A DNA stretch of 51,833 nt from a virus, in the IMG/VR virus record IMGVR_UViG_3300025603_000022, positions 1 to 51,833 of that record. The stretch is one strand, 5' to 3'. Below the pieces are notes generated by a model. It ran no database searches, was not told where the DNA came from, and worked only from the letters and a program-made list of their open reading frames with translations. Below, piece after piece: positions 4,589-29,319 of this stretch. The first letter of the stretch is position 1, and every line of letters begins with the position of its first letter. The position numbers and the translations under genes were made by a program.

Positions 4589-5106
4589 TCCGATTCCCGT
4601 TGTTCATAGTCGAACCCTTTTTCAGTGGCGCATGTCTTGCAGAGAGTTTTGAGCCAATAGTTCTTTGTTAAGGTCCTTCCATAGTTGCCACAAATTTCAC
4701 AGAAAATTGAAGATGAGTTCTCTGCATAGTGAACAACGTCAGACACAATAGTAAATATCATCTCTCTGTCGCTATCTGATAGTCCTGCTTTATAATCACC
4801 CTTATATGGCATACCCCAATAAAATCTAAGGGTTCCAAACTTCTCTTTAATCTGTTGAATTTCATATTCAGGACAAAGATAGTTTAGCTTTTTATCTACG
4901 TCTATTAATAGCTTGTACCAGCCAGGACCGCACTGGAATCCTGGGTAGATTGACTCTGAGAATCTCTCTAGGATTAGCTTTAGTCCCTCTGCGTACTCTC
5001 CTGCGTCCTGTGGAAGGACGATACAGGTACACCCATATATTGATCCTGGTTCGTATACCAATGCCCCAGGCTTACCCGCAAGGTCACAAAACTTTCTGTG
5101 TGCCAT
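4585..5106 (-). CDS. Conserved phage protein with KFGTLRFY motif and zinc ribbon
   Basis: A 173-residue protein of a family I recognise from many phages by the GPGWYKLL ... QIKEKFGTLRFYW core (residues about 60-98) and the C-terminal CEICGNYG ... WLKTLCKTC zinc ribbon. Biochemical function is unknown. N-terminal C7 and C26/C28 may add a second metal site. It is the first gene after two unknown genes and has its own possible promoter downstream. Confidence 0.75.
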   Translation of the reverse strand: MAHRKFCDLAGKPGALVYEPGSIYGCTCIVLPQDAGEYAEGLKLILERFSESIYPGFQCGPGWYKLLIDVDKKLNYLCPEYEIQQIKEKFGTLRFYWGMPYKGDYKAGLSDSDREMIFTIVSDVVHYAENSSSIFCEICGNYGRTLTKNYWLKTLCKTCATEKGFDYEQRESD

Positions 5107-5108
5107 GA

Positions 5109-5384
5109 TTATTCCTCAGCTTCTTCTATAGAAACAATATTGGTAGAGATACGCCAATCATATTGCTCTCTAGTAGACATCATGAAGTACAAAGACTTTC
5201 CCAATTCTAGCGGATCAAGAGAATGTTCTTGTGTCTCCCGATCAAAGGATGTAAGGCCAACAAAATGAAACCATTGATTATCAGAAAGAAGTTCTCCACG
5301 ATCTGCAGCGGGAACTCTCTTTGCTGTTAAATTTTTCATGTCAATTAGGTAATAGGTTCCATGCTCTGTAGTTGCTTTAATCAT
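5109..5384 (-). CDS. Hypothetical protein, 91 aa
   Basis: Beta-rich small protein (GTYYLIDMKNLTAKRVP) of a type seen in actinophages; no function known. Packed 2 nt from one neighbour and 1 nt from the other. Confidence 0.65.
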   Translation of the reverse strand: MIKATTEHGTYYLIDMKNLTAKRVPAADRGELLSDNQWFHFVGLTSFDRETQEHSLDPLELGKSLYFMMSTREQYDWRISTNIVSIEEAEE

Positions 5385-5385
5385 A

Positions 5386-5886
5386 TCAGTCCCATAACTC
5401 TTGAAAGTGTTCGGATAACCATTGTAGCGAATCTTCTATCTCTTTGTCAAGTACCCCGCCAAATTCTTTTTGCCATTCAGCGTTAAGCATTACCCCGTTC
5501 TTCGCATACTCCTTAAAGATAGCTATATGCTTGACGTATTCTGCATTGCGTCTTTCAATCATACCGTCAACGTCACGGAATTCTACATCAAGGGGGTCTG
5601 CGTATGTCATCTGGCATCCCTGGCCGTTGTCTACGATCCACTGCATAATTCCGGCAATTTGACCAGCAAGGAAGGAGTCTCCGCTATAGGCGTCACGGCT
5701 GCTAAATCCACGGGTAACTCTTTGGTAAGATCGAACAACATACTGATGAGGATACTTCCACCCATACCTAAAGAACATCCTAACTCTATACCAAAGGCGG
5801 TCAATCTTGTCCCATAAGCCTTCCTTGTTCGCTTGTTCTCCCTCTAGGTCATTCATCATTTCCTCCACGCTTATGTATCTTTTCAT
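5386..5886 (-). CDS. Hypothetical protein, 166 aa
   Basis: Charged, tryptophan-rich, predicted helical protein. The N-terminal half is basic (LWYRVRMFFRYGWKYPHQYVVRSYQRVTR region), the C-terminal half acidic. No catalytic motif seen. ATGA overlap with the upstream gene at 5886-5883. Confidence 0.65.
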   Translation of the reverse strand: MKRYISVEEMMNDLEGEQANKEGLWDKIDRLWYRVRMFFRYGWKYPHQYVVRSYQRVTRGFSSRDAYSGDSFLAGQIAGIMQWIVDNGQGCQMTYADPLDVEFRDVDGMIERRNAEYVKHIAIFKEYAKNGVMLNAEWQKEFGGVLDKEIEDSLQWLSEHFQELWD

Positions 5887-8718: not shown

Positions 8719-9753
8719 TCACACCGATTTTATTAAATCTATGTACTTCTGCCTCAGCGATTCTTGCGAGAATGTCTCATACCCAAGGGAAAATGCCTCT
8801 TTTTTTAGCAATTTCTTGTCTGATGCATCAAAGTATTGATCTATTTTCTTTGCTAGGTCCCTTGGATCTGCGCTATAGATGTCTATGCTCTTCTTTGCCA
8901 TGAAGTTTCCAATAATTTCTGACCCTGCCAGCCACTTTTTAGGCAATATCAGGTTATTCGGAGGTATGTCCGTCATGAATACCGGAAGGCCGCTTAAAAG
9001 TGCCTCATTCATCGGCAAGCATAGTCCAGCATACCTTCTAGGAAGCACCATGGCATCAAATCCATGGTATAAATCTTCGTTGTTGTCTTCATTTGACACT
9101 TTTACCTTTAGCCTTACGTCATCACAATCTATATCTAGGGGAGTTTGGCTCTTGATTACCAGATTGTAGTCAGATTCAGAGTATTTTAACATCTCTATAA
9201 CTGACTCTGTTCCGTTTCTGTCGTGAGCAGCGGCTTTACCGGCAATATGCAAGAGCTTTCTGCTATCTTTCATGTTGTCTACCCTGTTTTTGTTAAAAGC
9301 TTCCGCATCTGTTGGGGGAGGGAGAAACTCTATCCTAGAACGGTCTCCAAACCTATCTCTCATCTCGTCAATTCTCCACATAGTTGGTGCTAATAGAATC
9401 GTTGGCATTGACTCTTGCAGGCTAATGAATCCACCAAAAAATTCAAAGTTGTATTGAAGAATTGTCTTTATCTTTTTCTTTCTTGCCATGTCTACAAGCT
9501 TTTTATGATAAAAGGTTTCACAGCTAATTACAACGTCTATTCCAGACAAGAAATTGATTATGTCTGAGCTTGTGGGGAAGCCACTAACAACCTTATGCCT
9601 TGTATCCTGATACCTTTCAGAGTACTGTTTGTTTTTGTTAAAGGGGCTAGAGTCTATTACCAAAACCTTATCTGGATTTAACATCTTAACGAGTTCTAGG
9701 GTTTGATTTCCCAATCCTGTGTTATCACATCTGGCAATAATTCCTAGTCCCAC
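8719..9753 (-). CDS. Glycosyltransferase, GT-B fold (GT4-like)
   Basis: About 344 residues. The N-terminus GLGIIARCDNTGLGNQTLELVK is the glycine-rich first motif of GT-B enzymes, and the second half holds the donor-site region with a LPRRYAGLCLPMNEALLSGLPV stretch, corresponding to the E-x7-E signature of family 4 (E in NEALL). It should transfer a sugar from a nucleotide donor in the cytoplasm. Start taken as GTG 9753 (overlap with the upstream TAG); the longer TTG at 9768 would add five residues. It is the last gene of a four-gene glycosyltransferase operon. Acceptor unknown. Confidence 0.85.
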   Translation of the reverse strand: MGLGIIARCDNTGLGNQTLELVKMLNPDKVLVIDSSPFNKNKQYSERYQDTRHKVVSGFPTSSDIINFLSGIDVVISCETFYHKKLVDMARKKKIKTILQYNFEFFGGFISLQESMPTILLAPTMWRIDEMRDRFGDRSRIEFLPPPTDAEAFNKNRVDNMKDSRKLLHIAGKAAAHDRNGTESVIEMLKYSESDYNLVIKSQTPLDIDCDDVRLKVKVSNEDNNEDLYHGFDAMVLPRRYAGLCLPMNEALLSGLPVFMTDIPPNNLILPKKWLAGSEIIGNFMAKKSIDIYSADPRDLAKKIDQYFDASDKKLLKKEAFSLGYETFSQESLRQKYIDLIKSV

Positions 9754-12861: not shown

Positions 12862-12867
12862 ATGCTG

Positions 12868-12948
12868 AGCCAGAGGCAGGATTCGAACCTGCGTTGTTTT
12901 TGTACCGATTTACAAGATCGGTCCCATCGGCCACTAGGGGACTCTGGC
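12868..12948 (-). tRNA. tRNA-Thr (TGT anticodon)
   Basis: GCCAGAG/CTCTGGC acceptor, D arm CCC/GGG with TAGTGG in the loop, anticodon stem CCGAT/ATCGG with loop CTTGTAA (U33, anticodon TGT, A37), and T arm GCAGG-TTCGAAT-CCTGC. The cloverleaf is complete; the discriminator base is T and CCA is not encoded. The 81-nt length comes from a variable region of about 12 nt, longer than usual for tRNA-Thr. It ends 7 nt before the tRNA-Gln remnant. Confidence 0.88.
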
Positions 12949-19604: not shown

Positions 19605-20182
19605 ATTGTTACAACCTCATCCGGTCCTCCGTAGCCAGCCAGCCTTCTAGCTACCTCAGGCTTACAGGTCTTGCACTGCCCTACAACATCTTTTAATATC
19701 CCCAACAGTATGTCTTGTTTTCTTTCTTGTTCCAGGAGTTGATCTGCGAGTTCTTTATTTTCTAAAAGACCAGCTTTTTGCAACATCTCAATTCTTTTGG
19801 TTTCTATATCAAGTATCAGCTTGATAGCATTTGTCTTTGCTCCAAGGTTTTGTGCCTGTTCCGCATCTTCAATGACCTCATACGATCTTTTTATTAGTCC
19901 TGAGTAGTGTTGATCTGCGCTTGCCAGGGCTTGCCTAGCTCTTGATCTAATGGCTTCGTTGTTTGAAACCATCTTCCTCCACTCGTTCAAAAGACTAACT
20001 ACGCGGTTTCTAGGTATCTTTAAGGATATGGCTATGGATGACTCGTCGTTCCCCTTGATGTACTCAGAGGCTACGCGGTTTACTTCTTCTAGATGCAAGA
20101 CAATTTCGTTTTCCATTTTTACCATTTCCTTTTCATTGGCAATTATAGCAGTGGTTGGGGTAGGATTGTTGCCACCTAGCAA
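19601..20182 (-). CDS. Terminase small subunit-like protein
   Basis: 193 residues with an HTH-like region SSIAISLKIPRNRVVSLLNEW at about 48-68, then long helices (residues 72-150) and a C-terminal CKTC pair. It directly precedes and overlaps the large terminase gene, which supports the small-subunit role of recognising DNA. Start: TTG 20182 has AGGAAAA at correct distance and gives a sensible N-terminus; ATG 20125 is the alternative. Confidence 0.65.
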   Translation of the reverse strand: MLGGNNPTPTTAIIANEKEMVKMENEIVLHLEEVNRVASEYIKGNDESSIAISLKIPRNRVVSLLNEWRKMVSNNEAIRSRARQALASADQHYSGLIKRSYEVIEDAEQAQNLGAKTNAIKLILDIETKRIEMLQKAGLLENKELADQLLEQERKQDILLGILKDVVGQCKTCKPEVARRLAGYGGPDEVVTI

Positions 20183-20205
20183 TTGGTTTTCCTACCCCCA
20201 CCGAA

Positions 20206-24924: not shown

Positions 24925-25253
24925 GCTAGCACCCCGTGCATTACTGGGCGTGTCAAGTTAAAAACATTCTTTTCTGCCATCACTTCGTCCAAAGAAAGCT
25001 CTGTGTATCCATCACGAACTAATCCGCCAAAGAGGTCAAGGGATCTGATGATTATATCCGCTATTTCTCCCACAACCTCCTCATCTCCCTTCTCCTTCCT
25101 AATTGCCTCCAAAACCTCAGAGCATTCAGAGTGAATCATTGCAATCTGCTTAAGGTAAAATATTGTATGATTGCCCTCCGTATTCGGTTCCCAAAACCCT
25201 TTTGCTACTGCATTTTGATGAATCATCTTTGACATGCTGTCTAATGTCGTCAC
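24921..25253 (-). CDS. mazG: MazG-like nucleoside triphosphate pyrophosphohydrolase
   Basis: 110 residues. EC-S-E-V-L-E-A-I near 44-51, then GEIADIIIRSLD near 72-83 supply the paired Glu/Asp that bind Mg in the all-alpha MazG fold, and KNVFNLTRPVMHG is the usual basic end. It may lower (p)ppGpp or clean dNTP pools in infection. GTG start in a GTGA overlap with dnaE. Confidence 0.85.
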   Translation of the reverse strand: MTTLDSMSKMIHQNAVAKGFWEPNTEGNHTIFYLKQIAMIHSECSEVLEAIRKEKGDEEVVGEIADIIIRSLDLFGGLVRDGYTELSLDEVMAEKNVFNLTRPVMHGVLA

Positions 25254-28200
25254 GCTACCACTACCTCCTGAAATACTAGATCTTCATCTTTTGAAATTGA
25301 ATAGTTAATGTTATATGCCTTTCCTTGCTCTAGTCTTGTGAACGCCATTGCAAAGTTTGAAGGGAAAACTATAAGCGAGAGGAGGTTCCTATCGCTGTCA
25401 ACAAGAATAAGCGAAGCCATTCTCTTTCCGGCTTTTGTTATTCTTGGCTTAAAGGATAACACAAAATACTCCTCCTGTCCATACGGCAACTGCTTGTAGT
25501 TTAGGAACCGTACCAACGCTGATTTGCTTTCTCGTATCTCTTCCACAGGAATCGCCTCAAGAATCCTGTTAGATCCAACAAGAATAATATAAGTACGACC
25601 TGCTTCGATTGTTGTCTCTTCTTCATCAAACACTCCTATCGATCCCGTGGAGTCAAGGATATCTACCCTGCTCCATCCACTTCCTCTTTTAATGCTTCTG
25701 ACGACTCCCATTAAGATGTATGCCCCTTTTTCCTCAAAATCATCTACTGGGCTTATGTATGCATGGTAGTGTTGTGGTACCTGAATATTGAATTCCGGAA
25801 GATTAAGGTATTCGTACATGCTCTCCTTAATTTTTTCTTCATCTCTTGGGTGGTCTGGGAACGTTAAGGCTCCTACGGTGCTCATAGAGGCGAGAGCACG
25901 GCTATTGACTCCATTCCCCTTGGTAAAAGTAAACTCCTCTATCTCCTTGTATGACGAGAATGGCCTAGCCTCAATATACCTAGAAGCTATCTTGTCTGAT
26001 ATGTATTTGATGCTTGATAGGCCAAACCTAATACCTTTTCCCTCAATATGAAAATCTATTCCAGAGTCATTGACATGTGGAAGCCTCATGGGAATTCCCA
26101 TTCTTTTTGCCTCAATCAAATACTCTGTTCTAGCATCTTTATCCTTTTCATTCTTAAGAAGGGCAAACATAAACTCTAGAGGGAAGTAGTACTTTAGCCA
26201 TGCCGTCCAGTACGAAACTGTTGAATAAGCAACCGCATGAGACTTGTTGAATGAGTATCCTGCGTGGGCTTCAAAGTCATGCCACATCTTTTCAGCAGCT
26301 TTCCCGCCAAGTGGCCCAGTCGCATTCCGAACAAAAAGCTCTTTGAATTCGTCAAAATCCTGGGCATCTCCCTTCTTTCCAATAATCTTTCTCACCTTGT
26401 TGGCCTCTCCCATACTCATACCGCCAAGGTTGGTGCAAGCAAGCATAACTTGCTCCTGATAAAGAATTGTACCGTAAGTATCCTCAGTAAAATCTTTCAT
26501 CAATGGACTTGCATATGTTATTCCCTGTTTTCCATGTTTACGAGCAATGTAGTCCTTGCCGATTGTATTCATGGCTCCTGGCCTTACAAGAGCGTTAGAG
26601 GCAACGAGTTCGTTAAACTTACTTACCCCCATCTTAACAAGAAGGTTAGTGTATGGCGTTGCCTCGCACTGAAACACCCCCTTCGTGTGTCCGTCAGAAA
26701 GCATGTCGTAGATGTTCTTATCTTCCATGTCCACCTTATGGAGGTCTAGCTTCTTACCTGTTCGATCCTTGACGATGTTCAGCGTGTCATGGATAACGGT
26801 CAGGGTTTTTAGTCCAAGCGCGTCAATCTTGATGAGTCCGATATCCGCTGCTTCTGACATATCTACCGCAACCACAGGGAGTCTTGTGTCGCTTCCGGTG
26901 ACACTGCGAGTTTCCATTGGGGCGATGCGGCTAATGGGAATCTTTGAGGTTACAACCCCTGCTGCGTGAACTCCCGTACCTCGAATTCTTCCACGGAGTT
27001 TGTTTGCATACACCTCTACTTCTGGATACTTGTCTCGAAACCATAAGGTATTTTTAGAGAATACAAACTCATCCCATGTGTCTACCGTCTTGAGTGCCCT
27101 GTTGACATCTGCAAGAGGAACGTTAAAGCAGCGAGCAACATCTCTGACAACACCCTTATCTTTAAACTGTAGGAAGGTGGCAATAGAGGCAACGTGCTTG
27201 TATTGATCCTCTAAGTAGCTCTTAACCTCTTCTCTGCGGGTGTCTTGAATATCACTATCTATGTCTGGCATATCGTCTCTATCAACGTCAATAAACCTAA
27301 AAAATAGCAATCCATGTTTAATTGGATCGACGTCTGTAATCCCCAAAGCAAAGCACAGCAAAGATCCTGCTGATGATCCTCTACCTGGGCCGACCATTAT
27401 GTCATTCTTCTTTGCCCAGTTCAACATGTTTTGAACAACAAGAAAGTATGATGCAAAATTCTTCTGCTTGATAGCATCTAATTCTTCATTAAGGCGATCA
27501 ACATATTCCTGACTAGAATCCAGTCCCTTTTCTTTTAAGAAGGATTCTGCATATTTTCTAATCATCTTATCGGGATCTTTATGTTCAACAGGAAGCAGAT
27601 TTAAGTTTCTGTGGATGGTGTACTCTTCTATTTTTTCCGCAACCTCAATCGTGTTGGCAAACATGTCTGGACGAGAGTCCTCCCCCATAGCCTCATGCAT
27701 CTCATCACCAGAAAGTAGGTGGATATCAAACTTATTAAAGCTCATCATCCTATCTTCACCGTATAGGTAGTCAAGCCGTTTCATTGGATCTTCAATCTTG
27801 CGGGACTTATCGTATGTAATCTCTTTTTGAAGTTTGGCGTGTGTGTTGTTTATAAGCATGATCTCTTGAATTACTTTTTGATCTACCGTTGCATGATGGC
27901 AATCTGGAGTCACCACAATCTTGTGTCCTGCTGCATCGGCAAGTTCAATCAAAGCCTTGTTCATTCCAGCTGTGTTGTGAGGCATTACCTCAACGTAAAA
28001 ATCTTCCCCAAACCTGTCCCCAAACCACTTTAGGTGTGACTTTGCTGCTGCGTAGTCATCAACCTCTATTGCCTTATTAATAAGACCTGACATGCAGGCA
28101 GAAGTAACAATAAGGCCTTCACGATACTTTTCTAATAGCTCAAAGTCAATTCGTGGCTTACGGTAAAATCCTTCATTCCAAGCAATCTCATTCAATCTTC

Positions 28201-28522
28201 CCAGATTTTCTAGACCAAGGTCATTCTTTGCAAGAATAACAATGTGATTATAGATAACATCAAGGGGGTCTGTTCTTTCTTTCTTTTCCCTCTTATCAAA
28301 TCTATCTGCTGTTATGTACCCTTCTATTCCAAGAATTGGCTTTATTCCCCCCGCTTTTGCAGCACGGACCATGGGGCGGTGGCCCGATAGGGTTCCGTGG
28401 TCAGTGATGGCAATAGCCGTCATCTTGTTTTCAATTGCTTTTTCAACATACTCTTCGGGGTTGGATACTCCGTCCATCAGGGAGTAGTGGGTATGAACGT
28501 GAAGCGGTTCGTAGCTATGCAC
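25250..28522 (-). CDS. dnaE: DNA polymerase III alpha subunit (DnaE-type)
   Basis: 1090 residues, close to bacterial DnaE length. PHP domain at 1-about 240 (HVHTHYSLMDG, AITDHGTLSGH). Catalytic palm with GPGRGSSAGS near 375 and PDIDSDIQD near 417-425 (two acids in DxD, third D nearby). Thumb/fingers with GVFQCEA, YQEQVM and SFNKSHAVAYS, and a C-terminal OB-type region (AYILMGVVRSIKRGSGW ... ITKAGKRMASLILVD). GTG start with AAGGAAAA. It is the replicative polymerase of the phage. A candidate structured RNA with a terminator-like 3' end lies just upstream in its leader. Confidence 0.95.
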   Translation of the reverse strand: MHSYEPLHVHTHYSLMDGVSNPEEYVEKAIENKMTAIAITDHGTLSGHRPMVRAAKAGGIKPILGIEGYITADRFDKREKKERTDPLDVIYNHIVILAKNDLGLENLGRLNEIAWNEGFYRKPRIDFELLEKYREGLIVTSACMSGLINKAIEVDDYAAAKSHLKWFGDRFGEDFYVEVMPHNTAGMNKALIELADAAGHKIVVTPDCHHATVDQKVIQEIMLINNTHAKLQKEITYDKSRKIEDPMKRLDYLYGEDRMMSFNKFDIHLLSGDEMHEAMGEDSRPDMFANTIEVAEKIEEYTIHRNLNLLPVEHKDPDKMIRKYAESFLKEKGLDSSQEYVDRLNEELDAIKQKNFASYFLVVQNMLNWAKKNDIMVGPGRGSSAGSLLCFALGITDVDPIKHGLLFFRFIDVDRDDMPDIDSDIQDTRREEVKSYLEDQYKHVASIATFLQFKDKGVVRDVARCFNVPLADVNRALKTVDTWDEFVFSKNTLWFRDKYPEVEVYANKLRGRIRGTGVHAAGVVTSKIPISRIAPMETRSVTGSDTRLPVVAVDMSEAADIGLIKIDALGLKTLTVIHDTLNIVKDRTGKKLDLHKVDMEDKNIYDMLSDGHTKGVFQCEATPYTNLLVKMGVSKFNELVASNALVRPGAMNTIGKDYIARKHGKQGITYASPLMKDFTEDTYGTILYQEQVMLACTNLGGMSMGEANKVRKIIGKKGDAQDFDEFKELFVRNATGPLGGKAAEKMWHDFEAHAGYSFNKSHAVAYSTVSYWTAWLKYYFPLEFMFALLKNEKDKDARTEYLIEAKRMGIPMRLPHVNDSGIDFHIEGKGIRFGLSSIKYISDKIASRYIEARPFSSYKEIEEFTFTKGNGVNSRALASMSTVGALTFPDHPRDEEKIKESMYEYLNLPEFNIQVPQHYHAYISPVDDFEEKGAYILMGVVRSIKRGSGWSRVDILDSTGSIGVFDEEETTIEAGRTYIILVGSNRILEAIPVEEIRESKSALVRFLNYKQLPYGQEEYFVLSFKPRITKAGKRMASLILVDSDRNLLSLIVFPSNFAMAFTRLEQGKAYNINYSISKDEDLVFQEVVVA

Positions 28523-28540: not shown

Positions 28541-28652
28541 AAAAAAGGTAGGAGGGCAACTTCTATACTGGATTTCAACCTCGCTTTGCCGATTAACTAT
28601 AACCACCCTAGGGGTTGCGAGAATTCAGCACGATGGAGTATACCCTCCTACC
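28541..28652 (-). ncRNA. Structured RNA candidate upstream of dnaE, with terminator-like end
   Basis: Between the SSB stop (28660) and dnaE (28522). Minus-strand 5' GGTAGGAGGG (28652-28643) pairs perfectly with CCCTCCTACC (28556-28547), followed by six T residues (28546-28541). Directly inside, TATACT (28642-28637) pairs with AGTATA (28569-28564), leaving a 7-nt bulge on one side. Further inside, CTCGC (28621-28617) can pair with GCGAG (28584-28580) and GCTGA (28629-28625) with TCGGC (28592-28588); these two cross, so a pseudoknot is possible. A small ACCC/GGGT hairpin lies in the middle. It could be a regulatory leader or a stable small RNA. I recognise no known family. Confidence 0.7.
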
Positions 28653-28659
28653 AGCCTAA

Positions 28660-29319
28660 TTACCAATCAATGTTGGTGGTATTACTTGTTCCGGCAGCTT
28701 CAAATCCCAAGTAAAAGGACTCTTGCTCTGCATATGCTACTTCACGAACAACCTTTTCTAGGTTGAAGGGCTCTACTCCAGTCCAGTCATGCTTTTCTGT
28801 GTCTGGATCTCCTGGAAGAATGATGTAGGTAGTATCCGTTCCGCTGCCATTGCGCTTCATGCGCCAGGTTCGGTTAGAAATAGATCCTGTATCAATCGCA
28901 TACTCCTTGAGAGTGTTGAATGCAGACTGCTTTCCTACTCCCTGTGACCATACGGCAACGTAAGGATCTTCTAGACCATCATCAACAAGGAGGTTGGTGT
29001 AAAATCGGAACCTTGCTCTCCAACCACTCTTTGGTTCTTTGCGAGCCATCTCGCATCCAAAGCATCGCCCTTCGCTCTCTACTGTGCAGACAGCCTTTCG
29101 CTTGTAGTCTTTTGGATTTGTGTGCTCAGAAACAACAATAGCCAGATCTCTCTCGACATCAAAGTTGGGAGAGTCTTCGTCCAGCTCATTGATAAAACGA
29201 ACCTTGGAGCTTTGACCATCATCCAGCTTTAGCCAGCGAACCTTGATTCCGCCTTCGCCGGAAACTGATGGACGCTCTAAGGCTTTTTCCATTTGTTTTA
29301 ATCCCTTTATTACACCCAT
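28660..29319 (-). CDS. ssb: gp32-like single-stranded DNA-binding protein
   Basis: 219 residues. The central part has WLKLDDGQSSKVRFINEL, then H66 and C78, C86, C89 (CTVESEGRCFGC), the zinc site seen in T4 gp32-type and related phage SSBs, with FRFYTNLLVDDG and YVAVWSQG strands of the OB fold. No acidic tail of the usual kind except the IDW end. It should protect single-stranded DNA and bind replisome proteins. RBS ATAAGGAG. Confidence 0.75.
   Translation of the reverse strand: MGVIKGLKQMEKALERPSVSGEGGIKVRWLKLDDGQSSKVRFINELDEDSPNFDVERDLAIVVSEHTNPKDYKRKAVCTVESEGRCFGCEMARKEPKSGWRARFRFYTNLLVDDGLEDPYVAVWSQGVGKQSAFNTLKEYAIDTGSISNRTWRMKRNGSGTDTTYIILPGDPDTEKHDWTGVEPFNLEKVVREVAYAEQESFYLGFEAAGTSNTTNIDW

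Follow-up and report, generated by a model that had tools for sequence, protein, structure and literature searches.

What occupies the 137-nt gap between the SSB and dnaE genes in a virus record of 51,833 bases (analysed as a whole and called the window here), and what might it do there? The neighbouring minus-strand genes are, in order, a DnaB-type helicase, a primase, SSB, the gap, dnaE, a pyrophosphatase-type gene, and RecA. An earlier reading of the letters (hereafter, the original prediction) placed a structured RNA with a long closing stem, a possible pseudoknot and a terminator tail between SSB and dnaE, and the element indeed lies inside the gap. Since the genes around it are on the minus strand, it is read from position 28652 down to 28547 (Table 1). 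Its outer stem, P1, stops short of the dnaE Shine-Dalgarno sequence, which it adjoins without covering. A replication origin was considered for this region and rejected, GC skew having no switch near 28.6 kb.

Table 1. Coordinates of the element, its parts and the flanking genes in the window
Feature	Position	Strand	Remarks
SSB gene	28660-29319	minus	upstream of the element; phrog_9721 single strand DNA binding protein, E 4.8e-42
dnaE (DNA polymerase III alpha)	25250-28522	minus	downstream of the element; Pfam DNA_pol3_alpha, finger and PHP domains
Whole structured RNA element, ca. 106 nt	28547-28652	minus, dnaE sense	covariance-model match
P1 outer stem, 5' arm (GGTAGGAGGG)	28643-28652	minus	10 of 10 pairs in all 12 aligned homologues
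P1 outer stem, 3' arm (CCCTCCTACC)	28547-28556	minus	10 of 10 pairs in all 12 aligned homologues
Run of six T after P1	28541-28546	minus	not kept in most homologues
Antisense segment I (CCATCGTGC)	28628-28636	minus	complement of the 23S rRNA immediately 3' of helix 71
Antisense segment II (ATT[C]TCGC; relatives ATTTCGC)	28617-28624	minus	complementary to 23S GCGAAAU; also the P2 5' arm
Antisense segment III (CCTAGGGTGGTTATAGTTA; relatives CTTAGGATGGTTRTAGTTA)	28594-28612	minus	complementary to 23S UAACUAUAACCAUCCUAAG (helix 69 loop, 3' side); RNA apical loop
P2 inner stem, 3' arm (GAAATCCAG)	28568-28576	minus	pairs with the segment II region; RNAalifold/covariance-model alignment

The perfect 10-bp stem of GGTAGGAGGG and CCCTCCTACC, with 86 nt between its arms, the six T residues behind it, and a 6-bp TATACT/AGTATA helix had all been predicted, and all are present in the window sequence. 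A 10-bp inverted repeat alone is unremarkable, since a repeat search of the window gave 15 inverted repeats with a length of 10 nt or more. The window element as a whole folds better than 200 dinucleotide shuffles (z -3.19).

The element is a real conserved structured RNA. It has 11-12 distinct homologues in IMG/VR, with a single copy per genome, and all copies with readable flanks sit at the SSB/dnaE junction. A search with SSB yielded 80 IMG/VR loci, most of them with only a few bases between SSB and dnaE and a minority with a gap of 53-136 nt. Homologues were found among the wider-gap loci (L002, a near-copy of the window, L006, L007, and L008); only a shorter, usually GC-rich hairpin right after the SSB stop was present in L003, L004, L005, L009, L051, L055, L057, L059, L070, L072, L076, L080, and L081. 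Motif and flank scans added L105, L111/L113/L114, L115, L116 (a cut copy), L130/L141 (near-copies of L007), L133, L136, L138, and L149, the last of which has both structures, the plain hairpin first and the element downstream. The element is absent in related phages, where a plain hairpin or nothing takes its place. The gene order recurs in Streptomyces phage isolates belonging to the Stanwilliamsviridae, where SSB is followed by a plain hairpin and, in some phages, an HNH gene is inserted ahead of dnaE. On the SSB tree, element and plain hairpin swap more than once, at least two changes being forced by well-supported branches. No second copies were found in the window, in 17 IMG/VR records, or in two Streptomyces phage genomes; a scan of 296 actinobacterial genomes, conducted without a positive control, returned no further copies, and no homologues were found in isolate phages or plasmids. 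Other motif searches, aimed at more distant family members, gave only the known set.

To assess the structure, a covariance model was built from five homologues, with the window excluded. It found the window copy at 58.1 bits (E 2.6e-10) as the sole match in the window. In an alignment of 12 sequences, 92% of cells are paired, 13 pairs have both sides changed, above all shuffles, and the covariation score is 0.294 versus 0.168 in shuffles; because this structure guided the alignment and the sequences have common descent, the shuffle counts cannot be read as probabilities. Compensatory changes in relatives, on which the original prediction had staked its case, are present: the outer stem covaries, with 10 of the 14 outer-stem pairs of the model varying on both sides, and it is kept in all homologues. 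RNAalifold gave the family a better fold on the dnaE-sense strand than on the complementary one (-65.9 versus -51.1 kcal/mol; column shuffles ca. -30), and the dnaE-sense structure contains 64 G.U versus 8 A.C cells, a difference partly biased by how the structure was chosen. Inside P1, the family fold continues with two inner stems, P2 (GGATTTC with GAAATTCC) and P3 (AACTTAG with CTGAGTT), and ends in a large apical loop.

The inner helices seen in the window fared differently. TATACT/AGTATA, complete in the window and, among homologues, only in L002, is no family stem. Of the two crossing helices from which a pseudoknot had been proposed, CTCGC/GCGAG likewise has its full set of pairs in the window and L002 alone; for GCTGA/TCGGC, L138 joins these two. 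The predicted inner helices belong only to the clade of the window. As neither crossing helix is kept in relatives, the H-type pseudoknot as originally drawn was rejected. Nor is the T run conserved, at least five T within 8 nt after the stem being found in 4 of 12 distinct tails. We conclude that the original prediction was right about an orphan conserved RNA with a covarying outer stem, and that the pseudoknot and a conserved terminator tail lack support. Orphan status agrees with Rfam 15, which has no match to the element at curated score. With the whole window as query, Rfam returned only a tRNA lying elsewhere than the element (tRNA-Thr, anticodon TGT, 12867-12948, minus strand; the same gene was the only one found by ARAGORN). 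Permissive Rfam searches gave one weak spurious match for the window element (mir-942, 14.5 of 100 bits) and none for the relatives tested. A known riboswitch or ribozyme was rejected, nothing appearing at gathering or permissive thresholds, and no hammerhead, HDV, twister, pistol, or tRNA-like motifs were seen by eye.

The 5' half of the element, read in the dnaE sense, is antisense to domain IV of 23S rRNA, a property absent from the original prediction. It came to light when the family core, CTTAGGATGGTTRTAGTTA, which is the most strongly conserved part of the element, was scanned against 84,980 bacterial and archaeal genomes in a search intended for prophages: the 18.5-base core pattern had at least 119 matches in actinobacterial genomes, and the contexts listed were one rRNA sequence. 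Rfam placed LSU rRNA on the strand opposite to the core match in both contigs checked, and the core is therefore antisense to 23S rRNA. The antisense pieces are collinear with the rRNA: TACGC-ATTCGTGC, then, with helix 71 skipped, ATTTCGC and CTTAGGATGGTTRTAGTTA. In E. coli, the sense stretch TAACTATAACGGTCCTAAGGTAGCGAAATTCC is found at 1910-1941 of the 2903-nt annotated 23S gene, which we take to be 1911-1942 in the usual numbering, positions that cover the loop and 3' side of helix 69 and the beginning of helix 71. At one place, the core has the actinobacterial GGATGG; E. coli 23S would require GGACCG there. Compared with bacterial LSU rRNA (Rfam RF02541, helices 69-71), the element thus has the antisense of the same pieces in the same order, but on the opposite strand, without helix 71, with a clamp stem (P1) of its own, and with the helix 69 stem not preserved.

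Across the family, 198 of 209 core cells form Watson-Crick pairs with the rRNA, 10 form G.U pairs, and one is a mismatch; in the last piece, CTTAGGATGGTTRTAGTTA, 10 of the 11 deviations retain pairing via G.U. Segment I is less well kept, and poorly so in L006 and L007. Complementarity is retained in the core among phages with ca. 20-30% DNA divergence in SSB and dnaE, and core invariance is not only search bias, as L006, L007, and L008 came from the SSB search, and L105, L133, L136, and L149 were also matched by a flank pattern without the core. When the 5' half was aligned locally, with affine gaps, to antisense 23S, the scores were 52 for L149, 52 for L133, and 37 for the window; with both strands of 16S and 23S as targets, 1500 dinucleotide shuffles of each reached at most 36, 33, and 33, respectively. 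The sense 23S strand and both 16S strands scored at shuffle level. In plain BLAST against rRNA, the window copy alone gave a 17-nt match with an E of 3 in 52 kb, which is not above background (another 15-mer scores higher); core matches of single relatives were modest (E about 0.02-0.05; 1e-4 for L133), and the plain hairpins of L003, L005, and L009 had no 23S match above background. The window core has one mismatch and one wobble against 23S, and a host 23S variant matching it exactly was found in none of 396 actinobacterial genomes. Our proposal of complementarity to 23S rRNA accordingly draws on the family and on collinearity, not on the window copy alone. Common descent of the homologues means that their likeness to 23S counts as one event, not several.

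Duplexes predicted between the element and the actinobacterial 23S site had energies between -51.6 and -60.8 kcal/mol, compared with means of -25 to -30 kcal/mol for shuffles and values of -16 to -24 kcal/mol for the opposite strand. In predicted hybrids, the domain IV tile ranked first among 92 rRNA tiles for all nine variants tested. The complementarity is extended, above chance, and directed to one rRNA site, and the core changes, which represent few independent events, preserve pairing. The conserved, structured RNA thus has its dnaE sense as the complementary sense, a potential to pair with 23S rRNA, and a complementarity kept across divergent phages. We infer from this that the RNA is transcribed and binds 23S rRNA, and that binding has consequences and a purpose. 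Binding to host 23S rRNA or its precursors appears to be the most likely function, and we put its probability somewhat short of even.

According to the mechanism that we propose, the RNA would be transcribed with the SSB-dnaE message in a lineage of actinobacterial phages and would be a natural antisense hairpin against host 23S rRNA, presenting an anti-H69 loop. P1 would act as a clamp stem that holds the P2-P3 hairpin. The large apical loop of this hairpin reads GGAUGGUURUAGUUA and is complementary to the helix 69 loop and its 3' side; the internal loop and the 5' arms of P2 and P3 are complementary to the rRNA that flanks helix 71 on either side. Antisense hairpin RNAs of the plasmid copy-control type start pairing loop to loop; they are likewise stable hairpins with an exposed loop complementary to a target loop, but the element and its putative target are encoded at separate places, and that target would be host 23S rRNA instead of an mRNA. 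Here, a loop-loop contact with the helix 69 region might come first; the rRNA could then invade the inner stems, which hide part of the complementary pieces, and a domain IV hybrid of ca. 40 nt would result, with helix 71 left as a bulge. The outcome may be that free or maturing host 50S subunits are marked, held, or disturbed, or that the phage message is tethered to them, during the replication phase. This scheme as a whole, in which a phage RNA of ca. 106 nt docks loop-loop on helix 69 and the helix 71 flanks and either retunes host ribosomes or couples replication-gene expression to the free 50S pool, is offered as a conjecture that is more likely wrong in some part than is binding as such. 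Against binding to 23S rRNA and its proposed outcome, some of the complementary sequence is buried in P2 and P3 of the predicted fold, much of the target rRNA stays structured in mature 50S, a simple inhibitor would be costly to a phage that needs ribosomes, and related phages manage without the element.

The place of the element invites readings that involve transcription. The stem expected of an intrinsic terminator is there, a conserved T run is not, and with the run in too few copies we do not call the element an intrinsic terminator; a terminator-type role of the outer stem is nevertheless possible, because related phages have a plain terminator-like hairpin at the same place. In one such reading, P1 would be a partial terminator after SSB, and the inner RNA would sense some protein or ligand and so set read-through into dnaE, the rRNA-like core being mere sequence origin. 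Plain terminator-like hairpins at the same spot in L003-L005, L009, L051-L081, and Streptomyces phages Enygma, Sham, Wakanda, Gilson, Daubenski, and Navo argue for such an intercistronic attenuator, as does the replacement of element and plain hairpin by one another on the SSB tree. Some of the plain hairpins are, moreover, followed by a TTGACA promoter for dnaE; a search of the gap in four loci with the element (L002, L006, L007, and L008) gave no such promoter. The lack of a conserved T run counts against it, an alternative anti-terminator pairing was not seen by eye, and the conserved 23S complementarity is left unexplained; L149, with its element downstream of a separate plain hairpin, indicates that the element is not simply an elaborated SSB terminator. 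We consider an attenuator rather unlikely, if worth keeping in view. A more modest account is that an antisense fragment of a host 23S gene was captured, shed the palindrome of helix 71, and persists only as padding in a hairpin that separates SSB from dnaE and has a stabilising or RNase-processing role. Collinearity with antisense 23S except for helix 71 looks like capture followed by deletion, and P1 is very stable; yet the complementarity of the core has persisted through the divergence of SSB and dnaE given above, and nearly all core changes preserve pairing. This makes a passive fragment unlikely.

Regulation by a protein has a precedent in T4, where the gene 32 and gene 43 mRNA operators are likewise structured RNAs beside phage SSB and DNA polymerase genes; they lie 5' of the gene for their binding protein and reach its ribosome-binding site (PMC3014915). 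A translational operator bound by phage DNA polymerase or SSB would suit an element that lies beside SSB and directly upstream of the dnaE ribosome-binding site. The element differs from the T4 operators in lying between both genes, in leaving the Shine-Dalgarno sequence uncovered, P1 ending before it, and in being complementary to rRNA, which an operator does not explain; in L111, an HNH gene separates it from dnaE. We judge an operator improbable. Still less credible is an element acting as DNA, either a homing-endonuclease target or a recombination site, similar to the place in rDNA at which enzymes of the I-CeuI type act. The core presumably overlaps the conserved 23S stretch used by I-CeuI, HNH genes occur at the junction in L111 and several Streptomyces phages, and the window and L111 have SSB genes 98% identical and dnaE genes only 69% identical, which marks the junction as a recombination border. 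However, the complementarity reaches beyond the endonuclease site, the changes in P1 are compensatory, and the structure is G.U-rich in one strand (with the selection bias stated above). The plus strand resembles sense 23S rRNA and could in principle yield a decoy of helices 68-71, but conservation does not extend to the 5' half of the helix 69 stem, most plus-strand copies have C at the position that we take to be U1917, and this strand folds less well as a family; we give such an rRNA mimic hardly any credence.

Antisense binding to 23S rRNA can be set beside what is known of the site. Helix 69 is the central intersubunit bridge. Synthetic antisense PNA oligomers against the same 23S helix inhibited E. 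coli growth (PMC7038079), from which it follows that the site is reachable by antisense and sensitive. No report of a phage RNA base-pairing with 23S rRNA was found in a small search of open-licence literature, and the element would represent a family of RNAs whose defining mark is being antisense to 23S rRNA. If the proposal is true, it would be a natural RNA-based takeover of ribosomes and a new way for phages of actinobacteria to act on them. If the rRNA link is one of ancestry only, the element is a structured phage intercistronic RNA, and even then a captured, structurally maintained piece of antisense rRNA at a replication-gene junction would be unusual.

Several further observations concern the junction. 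The plain SSB-dnaE hairpins of the Stanwilliamsviridae and the freshwater relatives occupy the same genomic place as the element and have a GC-rich stem just after the SSB stop, but their loops are short and lack the core. Those of L003, L149, and L268 have a common loop, (A)A(T)CTCACGA, on differing stems, and its CTCACGA could pair with TCGTG of the structured element. In L051, L057, L081, and Streptomyces phage Enygma, a TTGACA-type promoter for dnaE comes next after the plain SSB hairpin, which gives the junction the look of a border between transcription units there. HNH endonuclease genes between SSB and dnaE were seen in L111 (4780-5382, directly after the element), L113, and Streptomyces phages Sham, Wakanda, and Gilson. 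L004 has a different ORF at this junction (4718-5437; phrog_7084, of unknown function), and ORFs of L268 and L024 start similarly.

Elsewhere, an unrelated phage contig (L453, ca. 8759-8781, minus strand) contains CCTTAGGACCGTTGTAGTTA, which is antisense to 23S in the E. coli form and has the same A-to-G change, a match within chance expectation for the scan. In the window itself, a second strong hairpin, GGTGGGGGTAGGA / TCCTACCCCAACC, was found at 20153-20202 (minus strand), at the junction of two genes; it has a 24-nt loop with an inner TTGC-GCAA stem and a fold z of -4.51.
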